Part shown: positions 5,546 through 30,400 of the stretch, in pieces
Position numbering within the stretch: position 1 is the stretch's first letter
Layout: each line of letters starts with the position of its first letter
NCBI GenBank assembly: GCA_000697355.1
Contig: JNEN01001259.1
Span: 1 to 64,000, forward strand
DNA from: Syncephalastrum monosporum B8922
Lineage: Eukaryota; Mucoromycota; Mucoromycetes; Mucorales; Syncephalastraceae
Direction: 5' to 3'
Length of the DNA: 64,000 nt
Program-made: the position numbers and the translations under genes
Notes under the pieces: generated by a model
The model's database searches: none
What the model saw: the letters and a program-made list of their open reading frames with translations, nothing else
What the model was told of the DNA's origin: nothing

Positions 5546-6702
5546 ACCGCTCTATTGTGCCTAAATTAACCTTTTGAATTGCTACGCGTCGTGTATATGT
5601 TTGTATGCCGACAAACAAAATGTGAAGTGATAAGGGGAAAAGGCAGCCTAAAGATGCTGTTTTGTAGTAGGTTCTGGTACTGGGTTGCATACAACAGCTT
5701 CAGTTGCATCATGGTGCTTTCCATATACATGTAAAAACATTGTAATACGGTATGTGGTCTGTGCTTCGCACTAAATACAGTCTGGAATAGGTCTAACGCT
5801 CCAATGAAAGAGGTCACCCACGTTACCATAGAAGACCCGTGTTTCATTCATTAGGGTGATGTCAAATATGGATGCCCTCATACTCGTAATATAACAAATG
5901 AAAAACGGCACCATGCTGAAGTTTTGGCAAGTAGTTAACTTGTAACTGCAGTGCAGCAAACGCCATATCTTTTTAACTTGCTGTAAATTTCTCTATATGC
6001 ATTAGAACGTTTATGTCAAGTGGTATAATAGCTGATTGTTGTTAATCAAATGAGTCGCCTTTAATAAGCATTACCAGCTGCCCCTTGCAGAAACGAGCTT
6101 TAAAAGGTCATACGAAGAGGAAGCAACTGTCTGCCGTTATTCTTCCTATTGTCAGTCTGTAAGCAGCAACGAAGCTCACCACTTCAGTAAGACGCTCATC
6201 GCTGACGCTACACGAAGTTACTTTAATGGATGAAGCCAACACCGTTTCCGTAACATAGGTTTTTTTTCTTCCCTTTACTTCCTGTCAGCAAAGACTTCGC
6301 CGTCACATCCCTTTATCCGGCCCAAGTCATCTATGCGGCAGTTATCCCATCGACGTGCTTTCTGACTCTGAAAGCCAGAACCCACAAAAGACCTCCCTAG
6401 AGTCTGTCTATGACGAGTGGACCTTCTAAACCAGGAGGCACATGGTAGAGCCCGTACCCGTTGACGAGGAGAGTAACCGAGAATTCGACAGCCGTATGCA
6501 GACAGAGCAAGGCGCGGGTATGGCACGTACTAAAGCCATATACGATGTGTACCCAGATTACTTTGTCTTTGAGACACTCCGCTTGCCCCATTCGAATGCG
6601 ACGCGACGCGTTTTCCTGCTGCACGCGAAAAAAGAACGAAGAGAAATTTTTACCAGAGCACGCTGCCCCCCTTTCTTTGCTGCCATTTTGTCGACACACG
6701 CA
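5546..6702. other. intergenic, upstream of ELG1
   Basis: No gene is supported. An open frame runs into the ELG1 coding exon from 6442, but its first 87 codons have no similarity to the family and precede a start with a textbook PIP box. The interval probably holds the retroelement flank and the ELG1 promoter. Confidence 0.5.
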
Positions 6703-9586
6703 ATGCCGGTGAAGGCAAGACAGGGCGCTCTTCATGCTTTCTTTGCTCCCAGGAAGCAAGTCGAGTCTAAGCCACGCACACCGCCTGCTCCTCCGCCTCC
6801 TGCTTCTTCTTCTTCTAAACCCCCTCCATCCTCCCCATGCTCTTCATCCTCGCCACCACGGCCTCAGCAACAACAACAGCACCAGCAGCACCAAGAACAA
6901 CGACCTGCTGGCCCGTTGCCTGCTCCATTCGCGCGTTATTCCGACGCAGAATGCTCCAATGCAGAAGCAAAACGCTTCGCCCGCTTCCAGAAAATGAGGG
7001 CAGCGGCTATCGAGCAAGAGCAGCGCGCCACCGCCGTCGAGCCGGGATTGCCGCTGCCGCCCTTCGAGGACGCACGTCGCGCTTTTTATGGCACCACCGA
7101 AGGCTGGGTGGAAACCAAACCTCCAGAGAAGGAGCCCAAGCGCCGACCGGTACAACCTCAGGAAGCCATGCTGCCTGACAAAGACCTCTTTGAGGGTGGT
7201 CATATTTCACAAACTGCCGAGCCAGGAACGACCGCACACGAAGACCAGGCCATGCGCGACGTCTGCCCAGTGCCACCGCGTCCCCATCCCACCGATGTCT
7301 CCAGCCTCTCCATGGATCAGATGGCGCCAAAGCGACCCCAGCAGGGCGCCACGCGGGCGCAACGCAAAGACAGCACAAAGCACGTCCTCAAAAAGTGGGC
7401 TCAGTCCGATCTGCGACGCGTCATGGACACGCTCCACCCTCAGTGGGATTCTGACCCTGCCTGCGCCTACCTTTTCCAGCAGTCGAAACCCACCGTGGCT
7501 GAACACAAGAACCATCAACAATGGACCGAGCGATACCGTCCGCGGGCTGTCGAGGGCTTGCTCGGCAACCACGAAAATTACACTTACCTGGCACGCTGGC
7601 TCGAAACCCTTCTCGTCGCGTCTCCCCCCTCTCCACAAGAACCCACTAAGAAAACAAAAAAGAAGAAAAGCAAAAGCAAGTCCCCTGGTATCGATCTGAA
7701 GAACCTCAAGATCGGCGACAGCAAGAACAGGAACGAGGTCCACTCCTTGGATGAAGACTCGGAGATGGAAGACCCAGAAGAATACGAAAACAATGACGAC
7801 GACGACGACGACGCGGACTTTGCACCCGAGGCGATAGCCACGCGCAAAAAGCCAAAGAAGCAGCGCGTGCGATCCAACCTGATCCTCATATTTGGAAAGC
7901 ACGGTATTGGCAAGACGGCCGCCGTCTACACCGCCGCCGAAGAAGCCGGCTACAGTGTGTTTGAGCTAAACAGCAACACACGGCGTGGTGGCAAGGATAT
8001 CACGGCAGCCGTCGGCGAAATGACGGAGAGTCATCAAGTGAGCTTCCACGCAGGCAAGAAACGGGGTCTGCCCATTGCCTCGACGGTGCAGCCTGCCAAA
8101 AAAATTCAAAATACCGGTCTCTTCAACCATTTCAAGCGCATTGAGCCGGAAAAGAAGGAGAAAACACCCCCGCCTCCTCCCGAGCCCGAGTCTGAATCAG
8201 AACCGGATGAACCGCAAGTCAAAGGCAAGCCGAAGCAGAGCCTTGTCCTGCTCGAGGAGGTCGATGTTCTTTACGAAGATGACAAGGGCTTCTGGTCTGC
8301 TGTGACAGAGCTTGCGGAGAAGAGCAAGCGTCCCATTATCATGACGTGCAATGGTATGTGTACGTGATCTGACCTACTTTATAACTCATCCTGTGTGTCT
8401 AGATGTCGATGTGATCCCGGTGGACACGTTGCCTCTCGAATCTGTTCTGGAGATCCAACCTCTCGTTATCCAAGAACTGGTGCCCTATCTCCAACTGGTG
8501 ACTTTAATCGAAGGATACCTCATTGACCCGCGCATCCTTCTCGCACTCGCGATTGAAAACGGGATGGACTTGCGGCGCTGCCTGCAAACGCTCCAACTGC
8601 AATGCGGGTGTGCGCCCAAACCCAGCGCCGGCTTTGCTCTCGCGTGTCAAGACTACTTTTCTGGCCTGAGTGACTTTACTTTCTGCAACGGCGTGGATTT
8701 GTCTGCCATCGTTCGGCCCAAGGACGCGAATGTGAAGGAGGGTATGCGAGGCTTCGGAAATCTTCAGGAAGCATTCAGCACGCCGAGTCTGCAAAACATT
8801 GCGCAGGTGCTGGATCGCGCTGCATTTGCCGACGCATACTTGATGCCCTACGATACCAAAGCTCACACACAGGTATGAACAGAGAAAGAAAAAAAATGAC
8901 TGCATCGAAATAGGCGCCTCACCAGAGAACGTAGCTTTTGTCGAGCACGGGCGACAACATCGTGGGCGTGGCTGGCCATTTGCATCATGAGGCGGTGGAC
9001 CTTCCTGTGGATGATTTTCACAATGCTCTGCGCGGGTACGAGGCCTATGTCAGTCGTTTGAACGCCAACGAGTTCAAGGCGCAGAAATGGCAGCAGAGGA
9101 TGCACAGTATCACGACCCTCAATTCGATGCTCTACTCGATCCGGTAAGTGAGACCCGAAACAAGCGTGCCCACTCCATCCATATTCATGGAATAAATAGG
9201 TTCCAAACATATCAAATCTGTGCCGACTCCATTGACCGACTTCTGCCCACCCGGATGCAATACATGCCTGATCGGAGAACGCTTATGGAATACTACGTGC
9301 CGTACGTGAGAGACATGTGTATGCACGAGAACAAGGCGTCCACTTTACACCGCAAACGCGGTCGTTTGGGTCGACGGACCGTCTCGAAACGCCACTTTGG
9401 AACGCGCTTGACAGATGAAGATGAAGAAGATTTGGTAGCAGCCTTTGAAAAATTCGATTTGGAAAAGCAGGTAAGACATCCCAAAAGTGATAAGTTACCA
9501 TGATACTCATCATTGCCTAGCTACAACGCTCGTCCAAGCGGGGAGACATATACACAAAAAGATACCAGTCCCTGTTTCATAGCTAA
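6703..9586 (+). CDS. ELG1: Elg1/ATAD5-type RFC-like AAA+ ATPase
   Basis: Large subunit of the alternative clamp-loader complex that unloads PCNA from chromatin after replication. Exons 6703..8353, 8403..8872, 8935..9143, 9200..9470 and 9521..9586 give 888 aa. The start is chosen because residues 7-14 (QGALHAFF) are a perfect PCNA-interacting PIP box. A long low-complexity region (polyP, polyS, polyQ) follows. Then come the RFC-like segment WTERYRPRAVEGLLGN, an acidic patch, Walker A GKHGIGKT (about 398-405), a Lys-rich insert, and the degenerate Walker B LVLLEEVDVLYEDD (about 514) with the EEVD typical of Elg1 rather than DEAD. TCND sensor-1 spans the first intron. The C-terminal clamp-loader collar follows and the end is short. 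RFC1, Rad24 and Ctf18 are excluded by the EEVD box and the N-terminal PIP box. Confidence 0.9.
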
Positions 9587-15935: not shown

Positions 15936-18900
15936 ATGTCGTTCCGCCCCTCACCTAGCCAACAGCACTGTCACTCACAGGGCATCAGCGACCTCACCGA
16001 CATTAACAACTTGACCGAAGAGGCGCTCGTCTCGACCGTCCGCGATCGCTTCCTGCAGGACAAAATATACACGTGCATACGCAACTCCACTCTTGTCGCC
16101 GTCAACCCCTACAAAGATATATTTGCCTCGGACGATCTCAGTGAAAGATATCTTGCCGAGTACAAAGAGACGGACCATAGCCAGCCTTTACTCGAGCCGC
16201 ATATATTTCAGCATGTCAATCAGGCTTATTTCCACCTGCGGAGGACAGGCTACGATCAGGCCATCATTTTTCGGTACGTACGCATGCATCAACGTATTGT
16301 AAAAATCCCTCGTTCTCCACACAATGTCTCTCCTTCCTGCTTACCCCTTCTAACAAAAATAACTGTTCTTTTGTTATTACTAGGGGCCAGAGCGGTAGCG
16401 GCAAGACCGAGGCACGGCGAGCCGCTTTGAAGCATTTAATTACACTCAGTGGAAACAACAATGCAAGCAAAACCAAAGTACACGACCTGGTCTCTAAAGC
16501 TTTCCGGATCACTGAGGCCTTTGGTCACTGCAAAACTCTCACCAACAGCAATGCTTCCCGGTTTGGAAGTTATGTCGAGATTCAGTTTAACGAGCGTGGC
16601 CGCATGATGGGTGCCAAATTTCTGGACTACATGCTTGAGAGCGTGCGGGTCACCGACATCCCCGCCGACGAAACCAACTTTCATGTGCTTTACTACCTTA
16701 CAAGCGACAAGTCGCTTCGCCTACACGATGGTTCCTTCCGCTATCTGCAGGATGCCAGCGGCATGACCCGCCTTGGCGGTAGTATGGACGAAAATGATGG
16801 ATTAGCCGAGCTCAGAGCGGATATGAAGGCCCTCGGCATCACCAAACAAACCTGGCAAGATCTCATCCATATTTTGGCGGGTATCATCCACCTTGGCAAC
16901 ATCCAGTTTGTCCAAGACAGCCGGCAACAAGATGTCATTACTGTGCGCAACCCGGTCGCGCTCGAGACGGCAGCCCAATTTCTCGGCATCGATCCCAAGG
17001 CACTCGAGAACATATTCTCCTATCAGACAAAGATGATCAAGCGTGATATGGCCACTGTCTTTCTAAATGCTGACCAAGCTGCCAAGCAACGCGACCAGCT
17101 TTCTCAAGCCCTGTATTCGCTTTTGTTTACCTGGGTGATTGAAATGATCAACAAGAAGCTATGCAAATCCACCTTCCAAAACTTTATTGGTCTTGTCGAC
17201 TTCCCTGGCCAGGATACACGCAATACCGGTATCCAGAACTTTGATCAGTTTTGTGTCCAGCTCGTCAACGAAAAGTGGCAACATTTTATGCTCCAGCATG
17301 TCTTTGACAACAACGTCCAGGTTTACAGCGAGAAACCTATTGACCGTGATCCGGTCGAGTGCCCCACCATTGTCACCACTGCGGCTTGCTTGGACCTGAT
17401 GACCCACCCAACCCAGGGTTTTGCGGCTGTCACGGACGCAGCGGCCATGGACAGCTTGCTGAAGAAGCAAAACGAATATCTAAGCATCAAGCGCACAGGC
17501 ACCTTTACAGTGACCCATTATGGCGGGCCCGTCACCTACAGCCGCGCCGAGTTTGCCGCTCGCGCGACGGATCCCACCCTGAATGCTGACTTCGTGGCCC
17601 TCTTCCGCGGCGAGGACACCACGAATGAGCTGGTCAAACAGATCTTCAACCAAAAAACGATCCAGACCCAGATGCACCCCAAAGCTAACAAAACCATCGT
17701 ATCTGCAGAACAGTCGTCGAAGCCACGCCGATCACCATCTACACGCAGAAAGAAGCAGGCTCAAGAAGGAGATGGAGCTGCACCAGAGTCGGCAACGACA
17801 ACAACAAAGATCAGCCAGTTGAACAGCGCACTCTCTCAGCTGCAGTCTTCCATCGCCGAGAACGCGCAGATCTGGTGGGTCCTCTGTCTACGGCCCAACG
17901 ACCTTCATTTACCGAGCTCGGGCGATAAGGCCAAATTGACCAGCCAGCTACAAGCCTTCAGCATACTCGAATTGGCGCTACGAGCACGCCACGAGTATAT
18001 AATGGGCCTCGAGATGGCCGAGTTTTGTGAGCGCTACGATAGCCTGATCCAAGCGACAGCCAGTATGGCTGATGTGGATGAGGCTGATGAACGTGAAAAG
18101 TGCTATGCTATCCTGGGTGCCTACAACTGGAATGAAAAGATGATGGTCGTAGGTGCCAATAAGGTAACGTTAAGCAACTGCTTGAGAAATATCGTATTGA
18201 TTTATACTGTGCATGTTTATTTAGGTCTATCTTCAAGGCACAGCCTGGATCATCCTCGAAAACAAATTGCGCGCCATGGAGAAGAAAGAACAAAAACGTG
18301 CTCGATATGCAGCCAAAGGGATCCCGTATGGTAAGCTACGTTTTTTTGATGCCGATTAAATTCACTACTTACTCGAGTCCGCATAGACGAAGACGATCAA
18401 GATCTTGCCTACCCACAGGTGTGCGACTACGCGACAGAAGGTTCCCTCTATTCGGGCATCCATTGCCATAGCACATCTCACTGCTACACCGACACCAACT
18501 CCATTTGTACGACCTCGCAGCTGGGTGACACCGCAAGCGAGCTGACAAAGACCCCGACGGGCGAATCCAAAAACGACGCGGACGAGAAGAAACAAAAGAC
18601 CAAGACGCCTTTACCCAGCAAGGCACGCATGCTCTGGGTGTCGATGACCTGGATTACAACGTGGTGGATCCCTGGTCCCTTGCTGGGCAGCTTGGGCGGT
18701 ATGCGACGACAAGATATTCGTATGGCATGGCGCGAAAAGGTGACTCTGTGCGCCCTGATCTTTATCCTGTGTGGTGCCATGATCTGGTTTATCGTCTTTT
18801 TTGGCCAGCTTCTTTGTCCCCGACAGGATCTGTACACACAGAGCGAGCTTCAGTCCAAAAACAACAAGGACAATGCTTTCGTCGCGATCCGTGGCGAGGT

Positions 18901-21399
18901 ATTTGACCTGACCTCGTTTGCGCCGCGCCATTGGGCATCCGAAGTGATCCCGGCCAACGCACTTTTCCAATACGCAGGCCAAGACGCGAGCGATTTGTTT
19001 CCTGTCCAGGTCTCTGCTCTTTGTGACGGTAACAATGCACCTGTGCCCAAAGAAGTAACGCTCGCCACGCGCATCAACATCACCGACTCAAATGCGGCTT
19101 ACCACGACTTTCGCTACTCGCGTGGCGATGACTACCGTCCTGACTGGTACTTTGAAAAAATGGTGTACCTCCGCAAGAACTATCGCCTGGGGTTTATGGG
19201 CTATGATGTCGATGATATTCACAATCAAGCACATAACCCTGTTCAAATCGGTGGCATCCGAACGCAGCGTCGCTGGGCCATCCTCCACAACACGCTGTAC
19301 GATTTGACTTCCTACATGGAGGGCGGTGTTTCCTTACGGTCCCCTGGATTACCCGAAGTCCCCACAGATACGAATATGACAGGTGTCGCAGGAGCCGACT
19401 TCATTGACAACTCGATCGTGGAACTTTTCCGGCAGCTCCCCGGTACGGACATTACGAGCCACTTTGATGCGCTGCCGCTCGACGAAGACAAACGGAGCCG
19501 CCAGATGACATGCATGCGCAATTTGTTCATGGTTGGCAAAGTCGATACGCGCAACTCGCCCAAGTGCTTGTTCTCCGAATACTTTTTGCTTCTCATCACC
19601 GCCTTCCTTTGCTCGGTCATCCTATTCAAATTCCTTGCCGCCTTGTGCCTCACTAAGAGTGAACGTGCCATGGAAGAGTACGATAAATTCATAATCTGTC
19701 AGGTGCCGTGCTATACCGAAGGCGAGGAGTCGCTCCGAAAGACGATTGACTCAGTGGCAGCACTCAAATACGATGATAAACGCAAGCTATTGTTCCTTAT
19801 TGCAGACGGCATGATCGTCGGCAGCGGCAACGACCGCTCCACGCCTCGCATCGTGCTGGACCTCCTCGGCGTCGATCCTAACGTGGATCCCGAGCCTGTC
19901 TCCTTCCTGTCACTTGGCCAGGGCCAAAAGCAGCACAACATGGCCAAGGTGTACTCTGGTTTGTATGAGCATGCGGGCCACGTGGTGCCCTACATTGTGG
20001 TTGTCAAAGTCGGCACGCCGCTCGAACGTGCCAAATCGGGAAATCGCGGCAAGCGCGACTCGCAGATGGTCTTGATGAACTTTTTGAACAAGGTGCATTA
20101 CGATATACCGATGACGCCGCTCGAGCTCGAAATATACCATGAGCTCAAGAACGTGATTGGTGTCCAGCCCAGTTTCTACGAGTTTGTGCTCATGATCGAC
20201 GCCGATACGGAGGTGATGCCAGACTCGCTGAACCGTATGGTGCGCCACTTTGTCCGGGACCCCAAGATTGTCGGCCTCTGTGGTGAGACGATGCTGTCCA
20301 ACGAGAAGGACACTTGGGTTACCATGATCCAGGTGTACGAGTACTACATTTCGCATTACCTGTCCAAGGCGTTTGAATCTCTCTTTGGGTCGGTGACCTG
20401 TCTACCGGGCTGTTTTTGTATGTATCGCATCCGGTCTACGTCCAACAAGCCCTTACTCGTGTCCAACGCTGTCATCCGCGACTACGCCGAAAACAACGTG
20501 GACACGTTGCACAAAAAGAACCTGTTGCATCTGGGTGAAGACCGTTATCTGACCACGCTGATCCTTAAGCACTTCCCCAACTACAAGACCAAATTTACAC
20601 CCGATGCAGCTTGCATGACCAACGCACCCGACCGCTGGCCGGTCTTGCTCTCGCAGCGTCGTCGTTGGATCAACTCGACTGTGCACAACCTCGGTGAACT
20701 CATGTTTTTACCGCAGCTGTGCGGTTTCTGCTGCTTCTCAATGCGCTTCGTCGTGATGCTCGATTTGCTCAGCACCCTGGTCATGCCTGCCGTTGTCTGT
20801 TACCTTGGCTATCTCATCTACCAGCTTTGCACAAGCACAAGTCAAGTGCCATTGATTTCGATTATTACGCTTGCTGGTGTCTATGGTCTGCAGGCCATCA
20901 TCTTTATTCTGCGGCGAAAGGCAAGTTGGTTCATTTTAATGGTAGAGCATGGTCAGCTAACATAATTTGTTTCTTTTTTCTTTCTCACCAGTGGGAGCAC
21001 ATTGGATGGATGATTGTCTATATCCTAGCCATTCCAGTATTTTCGTTCCTCGTACCCATCTACGCCTTCTGGCATTTTGACGACTTTTCCTGGGGTAACA
21101 CACGTATTGTACTCGGCGACAAAGGTCAAAAGAAAGCTGTGGGTCCTGAAGAAGGCGCTTTTGATCCGGCTTCCATTCCTACCAAGCGCTGGGCCGACCA
21201 TGAACATGACTTGCTGTTCCGTGATGACCGATGGGAGAAAAGCACGACCACAGGCTCGTACTACAATGGCTCAGTCGCCGGCGACGGTCTTCCTCCTCCC
21301 AGTCCTATGCGCCATAATCTCTCGAGTCTCAGCTACCAACAATCCCCCTCCTCCCGGCCCATGTCGCCCGCCACACGATTCTCCAAAAGGCCCTTGTAA
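15936..21399 (+). CDS. class V/VII chitin synthase with myosin motor-like domain
   Basis: Membrane enzyme that polymerises UDP-GlcNAc into chitin at growing tips and septa. Exons 15936..16273, 16384..18163, 18225..18330, 18387..20920 and 20992..21399 give 1721 aa. A myosin motor-like domain (about 20-640) carries the P-loop GQSGSGKTE at 114-122. A transmembrane helix (about 859-882) precedes cytochrome-b5-like segments (about 895-960), and another helix lies near 1140-1165. The GT2 chitin synthase core shows CMYRIR, EDRYL (about 1459) and QRRRW (about 1498), with membrane helices after it. Intron 4 (20921..20991) has a GCAAGT donor; only that splice continues the family sequence RRKWEHIGW. 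The tail ends in a Ser/Pro-rich stretch without a visible DEK_C domain, which many class V enzymes have. Family confidence is high; V versus VII is not settled by eye. Confidence 0.93.
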
Positions 21400-25845: not shown

Positions 25846-28800
25846 ATGAGAGCCAAACGCTGTGAAAGGAGGCTGTGCGAAGAAAGAGCGGAAGCGCGCG
25901 TACCTGAAGACGTCCAGCAAAAATTCGGACAAGAAATTCGGCTCACAATCATTACAATTCGGGATCAATGCAGTGCAGATTACTTTGTGCTTTATTTGAA
26001 CCCGTCTGTGCCAGACTTGCGTGGCAACAAAATCAACATTGGGAAGGACGACGAGATCAAAGAGTAGAGAGCTGCTCAAGGCTGGCGGCCAACCCAATCT
26101 GTCGCCTGCTCCTTATGCCCCCAACTTATTGTTAAGAAAACGCCAACACACTGCTGCGCACATTGTCAAGGAATCGAAACTCTTGGATGCCGAATTGAAG
26201 TCTCTCGCAGAAAAGAATGCTACAGAAGAAACAAAAGGTGTGTTTTGCGTAATGGTCGCCTTGGAGTGAATCTGACTTATCTATTGATCAGTCAAGGATA
26301 ATACGGAAACGTCCTGGCTTCGTCCAAGCGTCGTTTTAGACCCAACGAAAGATTCTCTAAGTAGGTGTCACGAAGTACAAAAGTGGATCCAGATAACGCT
26401 CATTGACTTTTTTCCGCCAGTTTTTCAACTCATTGACATCGATACACATCTGGATCCAGCGACACAAAAGGCCTCAGTACGGTTGTATGGCACCACACCC
26501 GAAGGCAACAGTGTTATATGCCACGCGAATGGCTTCTATTCCTATTTTTATATTCCTATTCATGTTGATATGGGCCAAGCCCATCTTGACGAGATGCGAG
26601 AGATCATCTGCGTAGGTCTTCCTCTTCCATTCTGTCGAGCAAGAAAGTCTCTAACCTTCAAATAGACACACCTGAAAATACCGGATGCTATCCACGATAT
26701 GGAGATCGTAGAGCGCGACAATCTATGCACATACAGTGGAGATAGCAAGTCACGTTACGTCCGGATATCTTCATCATCCCCCAAACACCTCCATCGCCTA
26801 CGCAACAAAGTTCAGAATGGGGTTCGTTTGCGGGATCGCTTTTTTAAAGCGGTGACGACCTTCGAAAGTAACTTTGCGCATGAAATCAAGTTTATGGTCG
26901 AGTGCAAGGTAGGCGCCCTGATCAAGTTCACGATCGCAGCTTACAAGTTATATCTCGAGTAGATAAAAGGGCACAGTTGGATCGAACTACCTGCATCAAA
27001 TTATCATATTTCTAAGGAAATTACCGGCCATGCACAGATCGAAGTTAACTCGACGTAAGTCTCGCATGAATAGAGTGGATAATGGCTAATGCTTCCCCTT
27101 ACAAGGTACACGGATCTCATTGGACATGCTCCTGAGGAAAATTCCTGGATGCATGTGGCTCCTGTCAGAATTCTAAGCTTTGACATAGAGTGCATGGTCC
27201 GAGATAACCAAATGTGTGATCCCGAAGTAGACTCTGTCCTCCAGATTGCCACTGTTGTCAAGATACACGGTAAGCGCATATACAGTAATATAACGTGCCC
27301 TCTAAGTCGTGCCTTTAGGAGAGAAAACATCTTTTATACGGAATGTCTTCACTTTAAACTCCTGTGCGGCTGTTTCAAATGCCCAAGTATTCTCTTTCTA
27401 CAGCGAGAGAGACATGCTACAAGCATGGAAGGATTTTTTCATGCAGGTAAAGCACATGCACGCCCTGTTTCGAAAGCGCACGTTCTTAATCTTGAACTTA
27501 GGTGGACCCAGATATTGTGACTGGCTACAACGTTTTACATTTCGACTTCCCGTACCTGATTCGAAGAGCAAAGAAGCTTGGGATGGAAAGATTTCCATAT
27601 TTCAGTCGTATTAAAGGTATGGAAATTCATTTTCTATCTTAAATCGCTTTCGCTGAGTCAATTCTCCAGATAAGGAGACAGTGATTACAAAAGCAGATGA
27701 TGTCGTTTCTTCTACGGGCCGAGTGTACAGCCAAGATACTGTAACCATGTCGGGTCGCGTGGAAATGGACGTGATACGCATCCTTCGGCGGGAAATTAAA
27801 ATGAATCGCTATTCCCTGAACGAAGCATCCAAAGTCATTCTTGGTAAGCTGTATAATTCCGTTATTCTGGTATATGCTCATCACCAGTTAGGGAAAACCA
27901 AGGATGATGTGCATTATAGCGAGATCAGTAAACTCCAAAACGGAAACGCTGATAGCAGGCGCCGGCTGGCCCAATATTGCTTAAAAGTAAGTGACAGGAG
28001 GGGGGGGGCACGAGCATGGAAGACAGGATGTTCTGATTGTATCTTCAAGGACGCAACCTTGCCACTTGAGATTATGGAGAAGCTCACAATGGTCTCCAAC
28101 TATACCCAAACGTCTCGTGTAACTGGTGTGCCCATACGTCACCTTCTCACGTCTGGGCAGCGATTGAAAGTTGCCGCGCAACTCCAGTCCTATGCGACAG
28201 ATCAAGGTTTCATAATTCCTATGATCGAGAATCAAGGTGAATTGAGAGTTCTGCAGTTCGAAGGAACTTCGCTGTTGTCGTAGTCATAGATGCTTATTCT
28301 TTCTACTCTACATATATTTAAATATATAGATTATACAGATTTACACAGAGCGCCACCTGAAATCATCAGTCCTGCAAGGGGCCTATATGATAGACCAGTT
28401 GTTCAACTCGATATCAAGTCGCTATATCCATGCATTATTCAGATCTACAATTTGTGTTACAGCACAGTGATCCGGGACAAGGACGTGAGACAATTCAATC
28501 TGCAGCAAAACGAGGATTACATTGTCATCGCAAACGGAGGTAAGGAGATCGAAGCAATAAACCGACGAAACGAGTCATATGTCTCGTTGATATGATTCTG
28601 TGGTTGAATGTGATCCTTCCTACAGTAAAGGTTCTCACTCCAAAGAAACGGAGAGGCGTCCTGCCCCGATTGCTTTCAGATTTGCTTGCTGAAGAAAATC
28701 GTATGAAGGAGGAGCACGAAAAAGAAAGCGATCTATTTCGAAAAGAAACTCTCAAAAGTAGAGAAATGGCTTTGAAGGTATTAGAAAGGTTAATCTCTTC

Positions 28801-30400
28801 TGAAGACATTCAACTAATGCCGGTATATATGCTACTTAGACTAGCGCTAATACAGTCTATGGATTTTTGAGCGCATCGAGATTTGGAGTTGTCTCGCAAG
28901 ATATCTTATCATACATTGATTGTCTAGGACGTGACATTCTATTACGCGCGCGCCAGGTCACTGTTTAGATGTGGAGAGAGACATGGGTTTGCGTCGACTA
29001 ATATTTTCATACAGGCAATCGAAGCACGTTTTCGAAATAGCAGAGTGATTTATGGTGATGCAAATTCGATTATGGTTCTATTCGGTGTCGAGGGCGTGAA
29101 TGAAGCCATCAATTTGGGTAAATATGGACCAGAATGGAAAGTGGCAAGACCTAGTTACTTACACACACCTAGGTCGTGAGGCTGCCAAACTGATCACAGA
29201 TCAACACGATATGCCCATCCGTCTCGAAGTTGGCAAGATATATAGCCCATTCTTATTAACGGATAGGAAAAGTTATGCAGGCGTGCCCTGGAGACGCCCA
29301 GATGAACATGGTGAACTAGAAATTCAAGGCTATGAGGTATTGATTTACATGACCGTAGTGCGATTATCTTACCTATATGTATCGGTAGGATTTTAGGCAG
29401 GACCACTGCAAATTGAGATACATCGTTACCAGAGAATGTATTGAGAAGATTCTTGTCGGTCGGGATGTGGAAGGAGCGAAAGCGTAAGTAGTAGCAGCAA
29501 CAGCAGTAGCATAATAGTTAAAAGTATAGCACTGCTCACATCCTGTCAGCTACGTTATTACGACCGTCAACGACCTGCTGAATAACAGGGTGGACCCTTC
29601 ATGGCTTGTTCTCTCAAAGGCACTTGACAAAACTGATCAGAAGCGCCGTGGCGAATATACGGAGCTACTCTTCCATATACGTCAACGCAATCCAAGAGCG
29701 ATATCGTACTTTGGTGAGCCGATATCCTACGTCATGGTACAGACATCCAAGTTCAAATCGTACGCGGAAGAGCCACTATTTGCGGCCGAAAATGATATAC
29801 CAGTGGACAAATCTTACTATATTGGAAACCAACTCCGGAAGGCAGTCGAACGATTACTTGAGCCAATAATAGGATCAAATATATCGAAGCTGTGTAAGTC
29901 ATGCATCCGTCGTACTCTCTGAGCTGTAGGGGGGCTGAAATTGAACCTTCTTTACTGTAGTCGACGGAGATCACATACGCTCCATTACTGTCACCACGCC
30001 CGCTACTGGGCCCCTTAAAAAATTTACAGTAAAATCGCTTAGATGCCTAGGCTGCAAGGCGAACCTGAGTCCCACGAGCGAACATGACGACCCGGTTCTA
30101 TGCCAACATTGCCAACCCAGCATTGTTGATATCATAATGAAAGAGGTGCGACGGGCTCGGTTGTACATCACATGTTCTAACCAATTTGACATCACACAGA
30201 ACGACAAGCTAAATGACGCTGAAATTCGCTTCTCTCGTTTATGGACTCAATGCCAACAATGCCAGAGCCGCCTCCACCAACAGATTGAATGCGGTAATAC
30301 GGACTGCGACATATACTATATGCGCTTCCAAGCGCGCAAAGATTTGGAGGACGCTTCTGCTCGTAACGATAGGTTCGCCAAGCTAAATCTAGATTGGTAA
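25846..30400 (+). CDS. DNA polymerase delta catalytic-subunit paralogue with altered motif C
   Basis: Family B polymerase closest by eye to Pol3/POLD1, complete at about 1112 aa (yeast Pol3 is about 1100). Exons: 25846..25899 (tentative), 26015..26237, 26292..26360, 26421..26611, 26666..26908, 26963..27054, 27106..27269, 27319..27446, 27502..27616, 27670..27843, 27892..27986, 28050..28236, 28339..28539, 28626..28777, 28840..28956, 29015..29117, 29173..29336, 29401..29483, 29550..29893 and 29961..30400. Exonuclease motifs are intact: Exo I FDIEC (27179-27193), Exo II GYNVLHFD (27523-27546) and Exo III YCLKD (27975-28052). Motif A is DIKSLYP (28410) and motif B K..SANTVYG. Motif C at 29051-29068 is YGDANS, so the second catalytic Asp is Asn. 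Both C-terminal Cys modules are complete. There is no stop or frameshift. The first exon is weakly supported, as exon 2 has no ATG. Confidence 0.85.
29051..29068 (+). other. motif C of the polymerase paralogue, YGDANS
   Basis: Codons TAT GGT GAT GCA AAT TCG. Family B polymerases have YGDTDS here; the second Asp (yeast Pol3 Asp764, RB69 Asp623) ligands the catalytic metals. It is Asn in this gene, while the first Asp is kept. Confidence 0.9.
30044..30307 (+). other. CysA and CysB modules of the polymerase paralogue
   Basis: CysA is C-x2-C (30044, 30053) with C-x2-C (30101, 30110). CysB is C-x2-C-x9-C-x4-C (30251, 30260, 30290, 30305). In Pol delta, CysA binds zinc and supports PCNA contact, and CysB holds a 4Fe-4S cluster and docks the B-subunit. 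All eight cysteines are present. Confidence 0.85.

Follow-up and report, generated by a model that had tools for sequence, protein, structure and literature searches.

A constrained, fast-evolving duplicate of the DNA polymerase delta catalytic subunit in Syncephalastrum monosporum that may have given up DNA synthesis

The window, a stretch of 64,000 nucleotides (64 kb) from Syncephalastrum monosporum B8922, carries a gene that, as read from its sequence, is a DNA polymerase delta (Pol delta) catalytic subunit by descent (Table 1). We modelled the gene by spliced alignment with the S. racemosum orthologue as guide, which gave 20 exons from 26021 to 30397 followed by a stop codon at 30398-30400, with no stop or frameshift in 1081 codons and with 19 introns of 48-93 bp, every one of them GT-AG. 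A model made earlier by hand, when the orthologue was not yet known, had 19 exons and was also open throughout; it differed at two junctions and missed the last intron. The preliminary description had put 20 exons in frame over about 1112 codons, from 25846 onwards. The exon number and the open frame were borne out, but the length counted from 26021 is shorter, and the ATG at 25846 proved to be one possible start that requires an unproven intron; the exon given in Table 1 for this ATG is not among the 20 counted here. At 26021, where the S. racemosum protein has its Met1, S. monosporum has a GTG codon.

Upstream of the gene lies an ORF of the thaumatin family (PF00314, 24605-25333), and at 16181-20962 Pfam finds a myosin-head ORF and then an ORF with chitin synthase and cytochrome b5 domains; the two apparently belong to a single gene for a myosin-linked chitin synthase. 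The ORFs at 6430-9503, about 16 kb from the paralogue, presumably resemble the PCNA unloader ELG1/ATAD5, the first of them having no Pfam hit; their presence near the paralogue is probably a coincidence.

Table 1. Positions in the window of the paralogue and its motifs (residue numbers are those of yeast Pol3)
Feature	Position	Strand	Remarks
Pol delta catalytic-subunit paralogue	26021..30400	+	20 exons, GTG (S. racemosum Met1 position) to TAA
Candidate first exon with ATG	25846..25899	+	Unproven; intron 25900-26014; one of two combinations of ATG, donor and acceptor that pass a simple filter
Exo I motif, Asp and Glu (D321, E323)	27182..27190	+	Kept
Exo II Asp (D407)	27544..27546	+	Kept
Exo III Tyr and Asp (Y516, D520), flanking an intron	27975..28052	+	Kept
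Motif A DIKSLYPC	28410..28433	+	D608 kept, F609I, S615C
Glu at dNTP-binding Arg position (R674)	28694..28696	+	Glu in both orthologues, Arg in 285/285 others
Motif B region across intron	28775..28866	+	K701, N705 kept
Motif C YGDANS	29051..29068	+	D762 kept, T763A, D764N
Third-metal region E-V-G	29226..29234	+	E800 kept, E802 to Gly
KKRY motif, here RKSY	29265..29276	+	Changed
CysA zinc module	30044..30112	+	Four Cys kept
CysB (Fe-S, B-subunit contact) module	30251..30307	+	Four Cys kept

The Pfam domains PF03104, PF00136 and PF14260 scored above cut-off in both the S. monosporum paralogue and its S. racemosum orthologue, and their order in the former (exonuclease, family B polymerase, C4 zinc finger) is that of Pol delta. 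A chance open frame is ruled out by 71-74% identity, over the full length, to a database protein. This best match is an S. racemosum entry of 1080 residues named 'delta DNA polymerase, partial' (P0001), identical at 74% of 1080 sites, so that the search for orthologues in related fungi called for in the preliminary description did return one. No further orthologue appeared among the best 120 of 1477 hits (P0001 at 2452 bits, the next at 1068) in a database search that scored the 7995 candidates sharing most words, and an orthologue outside these two species is likely to be absent; the family is known from the S. monosporum and S. racemosum sequences.

A canonical POL3 was also found in the same genome. 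Family B polymerase domains occur at five loci in the 27.5 Mb assembly, the paralogue on contig C180, of which the window is bases 1-64000, being the fifth. The others carry DFNSLYPSI and YGDTDS (C172), DFTSLYPSI and YGDTDS (C179), DFQSLYPSV and YGDTDS (C63), and a frame of 1648 residues with a family B polymerase domain (C177), and we read them from their motifs as putative Pol alpha, Pol delta (POL3), Pol zeta and Pol epsilon, respectively. Spliced alignment of the POL3 on C179 gave 19 exons and 1013 aligned codons with no stop or frameshift and with an intact YGDTDS. This gene (L009 1949-6044) apparently begins at MMEIDS, as annotated in the S. racemosum POL3 (P0142); it is without the N-terminal extension and basic patch of other Mucorales, and the paralogue retains a similar extension. 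The B-subunit domain was detected at three loci, taken collectively to be the Pol alpha, delta and epsilon subunits, and the PCNA domain at one, and in these domain searches of the genome we saw no extra partner subunit accompanying the paralogue.

The paralogue is about 41% identical to the POL3 of its own genome and shares with it the position and phase of 14 of its 19 introns, which indicates that it arose by DNA copying and not by retroposition; a retrocopy was rejected because introns are present. We hold a viral or horizontal origin to be unlikely, given these coinciding introns and a tree that places the pair among fungal Pol delta sequences. In that tree of 41 sequences the two paralogues formed a pair (support 100); their stem measured 1.74 substitutions per site and their tips 0.197 and 0.166, while the tips of the POL3 pair were 0.025 and 0.007, so that the paralogue changes about tenfold faster than POL3. 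The pair fell in Mucorales Pol delta, where the surrounding nodes had support of just 18-58. With 25 sequences, neither a duplication confined to Syncephalastrum (AU p 0.40) nor an origin outside the canonical Mucorales sequences (AU p 0.69) was rejected. The tree searches of this test were fast ones, and each of the two constrained trees outscored the unconstrained one; the 5000 replicates fall short of the number that the program recommends.

The preliminary description had read motif C as YGDANS, and the codons (TAT GGT GAT GCA AAT TCG, the Asn codon at 29063-29065) do encode this; motif A (DIKSLYP) and motif B (K..SANTVYG) were likewise found as described. The Asn, residue 735 of the paralogue, aligns with yeast Pol3 D764, which is Asp in every one of the 286 other sequences that have no gap at this site (three do), the comparison set being the genome's own POL3 and 288 database proteins that are the top matches of three homology searches and not a random sample. 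Passages of PMC7720213 and PMC5718519 have D608 and D764 holding the catalytic metals in Pol delta structures, in agreement with the role that had been proposed for the second Asp; of this metal-binding pair the paralogue retains D608 and has lost D764. According to sections of PMC5718519, R674 contacts the dNTP and E802 is a ligand of the third metal. The dNTP-binding set R674, K701 and N705 is broken by R674E, and E802, which is Glu in 285/285 others, is Gly in S. monosporum and Asp in S. racemosum. Common to both orthologues are also F609I, K813R, R840Q and H903Y, at positions where the usual residue is found in 289/289, 283/283, 284/284 and 283/284 of the other sequences. T763A and S615C occur in the S. 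monosporum protein only, and P614S and E800A in the S. racemosum protein only; E800 itself varies among the other sequences (Glu in 246/285).

Conservation of the Asn across orthologues was not observed, since S. racemosum retains YGDTDS; the loss of D764 is therefore specific to one lineage. The loss or severe reduction of synthesis through motif C that had been inferred is thus not the common state of the two proteins, and the damage present in both species lies elsewhere, at R674, E802 and other sites. The motif A of P0001 reads SLYSS, with Ser in place of a Pro found in 289/289 others, and P614S together with E802D indicates that in P0001, too, conserved residues of the polymerase site are being lost, with YGDTDS intact. 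Among sites conserved in at least 99% of the 289 other sequences, in the palm and fingers 32/86 were lost in S. monosporum and 25/86 in S. racemosum, 23 of them shared, and in the thumb 5/17 in each, three shared, of which one is Y897, whose state depends on the alignment (Gln in one, a gap in another) and which we left out of the argument. Given that the second metal-holding Asp and other active-site residues are gone, the S. monosporum protein is likely to be without DNA synthesis.

D764N could stem from one wrong base in the sequencing or assembly of motif C. However, the adjacent codon (T763A) and E802 are also changed, and POL3 and the paralogue each run for more than 3 kb with no error of frame, so that we consider such an error exceedingly improbable. 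A specialised polymerase that tolerates the Asn and is still active, perhaps as an extender during translesion synthesis, has a precedent in archaeal PolB2 (Dpo2), a B-family paralogue beside the main replicase that was once called inactivated for its changes in motif C and is active, as parts of PMC8764526 report. The retention of D608, K701, N705 and Y613, and of D764 in S. racemosum, is also in keeping with activity. On the other hand, PolB2 misses the first Asp and has degenerate exonuclease motifs, as set out in sections of PMC8764526 and PMC7544198, whereas in S. monosporum it is the second Asp, a metal ligand, that is gone, with the exonuclease residues kept, and R674E and E802G accompany D764N. 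We regard an active polymerase as very unlikely.

The exonuclease site presented a different picture. Y516 and D520, which we take to be further catalytic residues of the Pol3 exonuclease, would make up with D321, E323 and D407 what is presumably a proofreading 3'-5' exonuclease of the DEDDy type, and all five are kept in both orthologues, a point that the preliminary description had passed over. The residues D321, E323 and D407 are the ones named in passages of PMC7720213. The CysA and CysB cysteines (8/8) are kept in both proteins as well. Sites conserved at the 99% level or above were lost in the exonuclease domain at 7/45 (S. monosporum) and 6/45 (S. racemosum), six of them shared, in the C-terminal domain (CTD) at 0/7 in both, and in the N-terminal domain (NTD) at 0/4; the contrast between exonuclease and palm gave p 0.015 in S. 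monosporum and a borderline p 0.052 in S. racemosum. A Pol delta fold is predicted for the S. racemosum orthologue P0001 only, with a mean pLDDT of 76.2, a pTM of 0.66, and human and yeast Pol delta as the best matches. The PCNA-contact peptide, GGLMSFI in yeast according to part of PMC7720213, is GPLKKFT in the S. monosporum paralogue and GPLGKFT in the S. racemosum orthologue; the peptide is also variable among other species, and the PCNA contact of the paralogue may be weaker.

We examined the differences between the two paralogues for signs of constraint. They differ at 278/1080 sites, and for the 220 replacements that lie one base step from the S. monosporum codon the mean BLOSUM62 score was 0.41, against -0.39 (sd 0.11) under neutrality, a mean reached in 0/20000 simulations of random one-step replacements. 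Sites invariant among canonical sequences differed less often (50/276, 18.1%) than variable ones (131/430, 30.5%). Neutral evolution would be expected to leave about 14.8 stops in the two lineages combined, roughly half of them in S. monosporum, and this half alone is the fair count, as an annotated protein never shows stops. Thus neither the stops, frameshifts or broken splice sites nor the neutral pattern of replacement of a pseudogene was seen; the paralogue is constrained, though loosely, and the suggestion that it is no plain decaying duplicate was upheld by the strongly conservative replacements.

A decay that began late in S. monosporum, in a gene under constraint until recently whose start codon and catalytic residues are now being lost, would account for the GTG at the orthologue's Met1 position, for D764N, T763A and E802G, and for the roughly tenfold rate relative to POL3, and derived changes were slightly more numerous in S. 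monosporum (61, against 45 in S. racemosum, with 172 ambiguous; p 0.14). Against it, 3.2 kb have been maintained with neither stop nor frameshift and with all splice borders in place where several neutral stops were expected, the tips of the two species have similar rates, and an upstream ATG exon is possible. Late decay, though a serious alternative, appears to us unlikely.

The constraint was unevenly distributed. The pair differed at 40/228 sites in the exonuclease domain, which had the fewest raw differences, and at 94/303 in the palm and fingers (Fisher p 4e-4), a ratio of 1.77 and the reverse of what POL3 shows; among 231 canonical pairs, drawn from 22 canonical Mucoromycotina sequences, the median ratio was 0.79, one pair of any divergence reached at least 1.77, and the maximum was 1.22 among the 183 pairs with 20-35% overall difference. 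Relative to canonical tips, the tip lengths were 0.384 for palm and fingers, 0.344 for the thumb, 0.145 for the exonuclease, 0.142 for the CTD and 0.06 for the NTD. As the NTD is slower than the exonuclease and the CTD equal to it, the contrast is one between the synthesis parts and the rest, not a feature of the exonuclease alone, and the pattern also fits a scaffold or regulator free of catalysis that holds, or competes for, Pol31-type subunits or DNA ends, with neither catalytic site of importance. Such a protein would be in keeping with the intact cysteine modules and highly conserved CTD sites, and it has a precedent in Pol epsilon, whose C-terminal half is inactive (described in part of PMC2669801). 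It would not, however, be expected to keep all five exonuclease residues in two species, nor to have its fewest differences in an unused exonuclease domain, and we think it rather improbable as the whole explanation.

Taken together, the sequence evidence leads us to favour, with not quite even confidence, a retained and fast-evolving Pol delta duplicate that no longer makes DNA and whose role is either that of an exonuclease or that of a scaffold. A duplicate of the catalytic subunit would have moved away from DNA synthesis in the Syncephalastrum lineage; the protein would no longer polymerise, would still fold and join a Pol31-type B subunit through CysB, would perhaps be loosely held to PCNA, and, in the least certain step, would be a 3'-5' exonuclease working on 3' ends, either a proofreader in trans or a trimmer of ends. 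Proofreading in trans is reported for yeast Pol delta (PMC4351087), so that a version free of polymerase has a plausible job. The narrower proposal, a free-standing exonuclease derived from Pol delta, its synthesis site disarmed, that works in trans on ends which other polymerases have left, so that a eukaryote would have separated proofreading from synthesis, is possible, though on balance we doubt it; six highly conserved sites of the exonuclease domain are lost in both orthologues, and its activity is therefore not assured.

The duplicate resembles Pol delta (POL3/POLD1) in the order of its domains, in its exonuclease residues, in both cysteine modules and in intron positions, and is unlike it in D764N, R674E, E802G and the altered PCNA-contact peptide, and in being extra beside an intact POL3. 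The C-terminal module of Pol epsilon would be similar in that a B-family fold outlives its polymerase residues and has cysteine modules for a B subunit (parts of PMC2669801 and PMC7544198), but there the module is part of a fusion with an active polymerase, has an ancient origin and occurs almost universally, and its exonuclease is inactive as well. According to passages of PMC2669801, eukaryotes have four paralogues of family B (Pol alpha, delta, epsilon and zeta), and we found no report of the present one among the open-licence papers listed, by title and abstract opening, in the literature searches. It would be a fifth eukaryotic member, so far from one genus, with its exonuclease residues kept and its polymerase site broken down, and would allow trans-proofreading to be studied apart from synthesis. 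P0001 has in common with it R674E and the four other shared replacements, and differs in its YGDTDS and its own P614S, E800A and E802D. S. racemosum also has its canonical POL3 (P0142), 97.2% identical over 1010 sites to that of S. monosporum, which makes the two hosts closely related; R674E and a changed E802 being common to both and D764N confined to one, they would be two near relatives that have gone unequally far in losing the polymerase.
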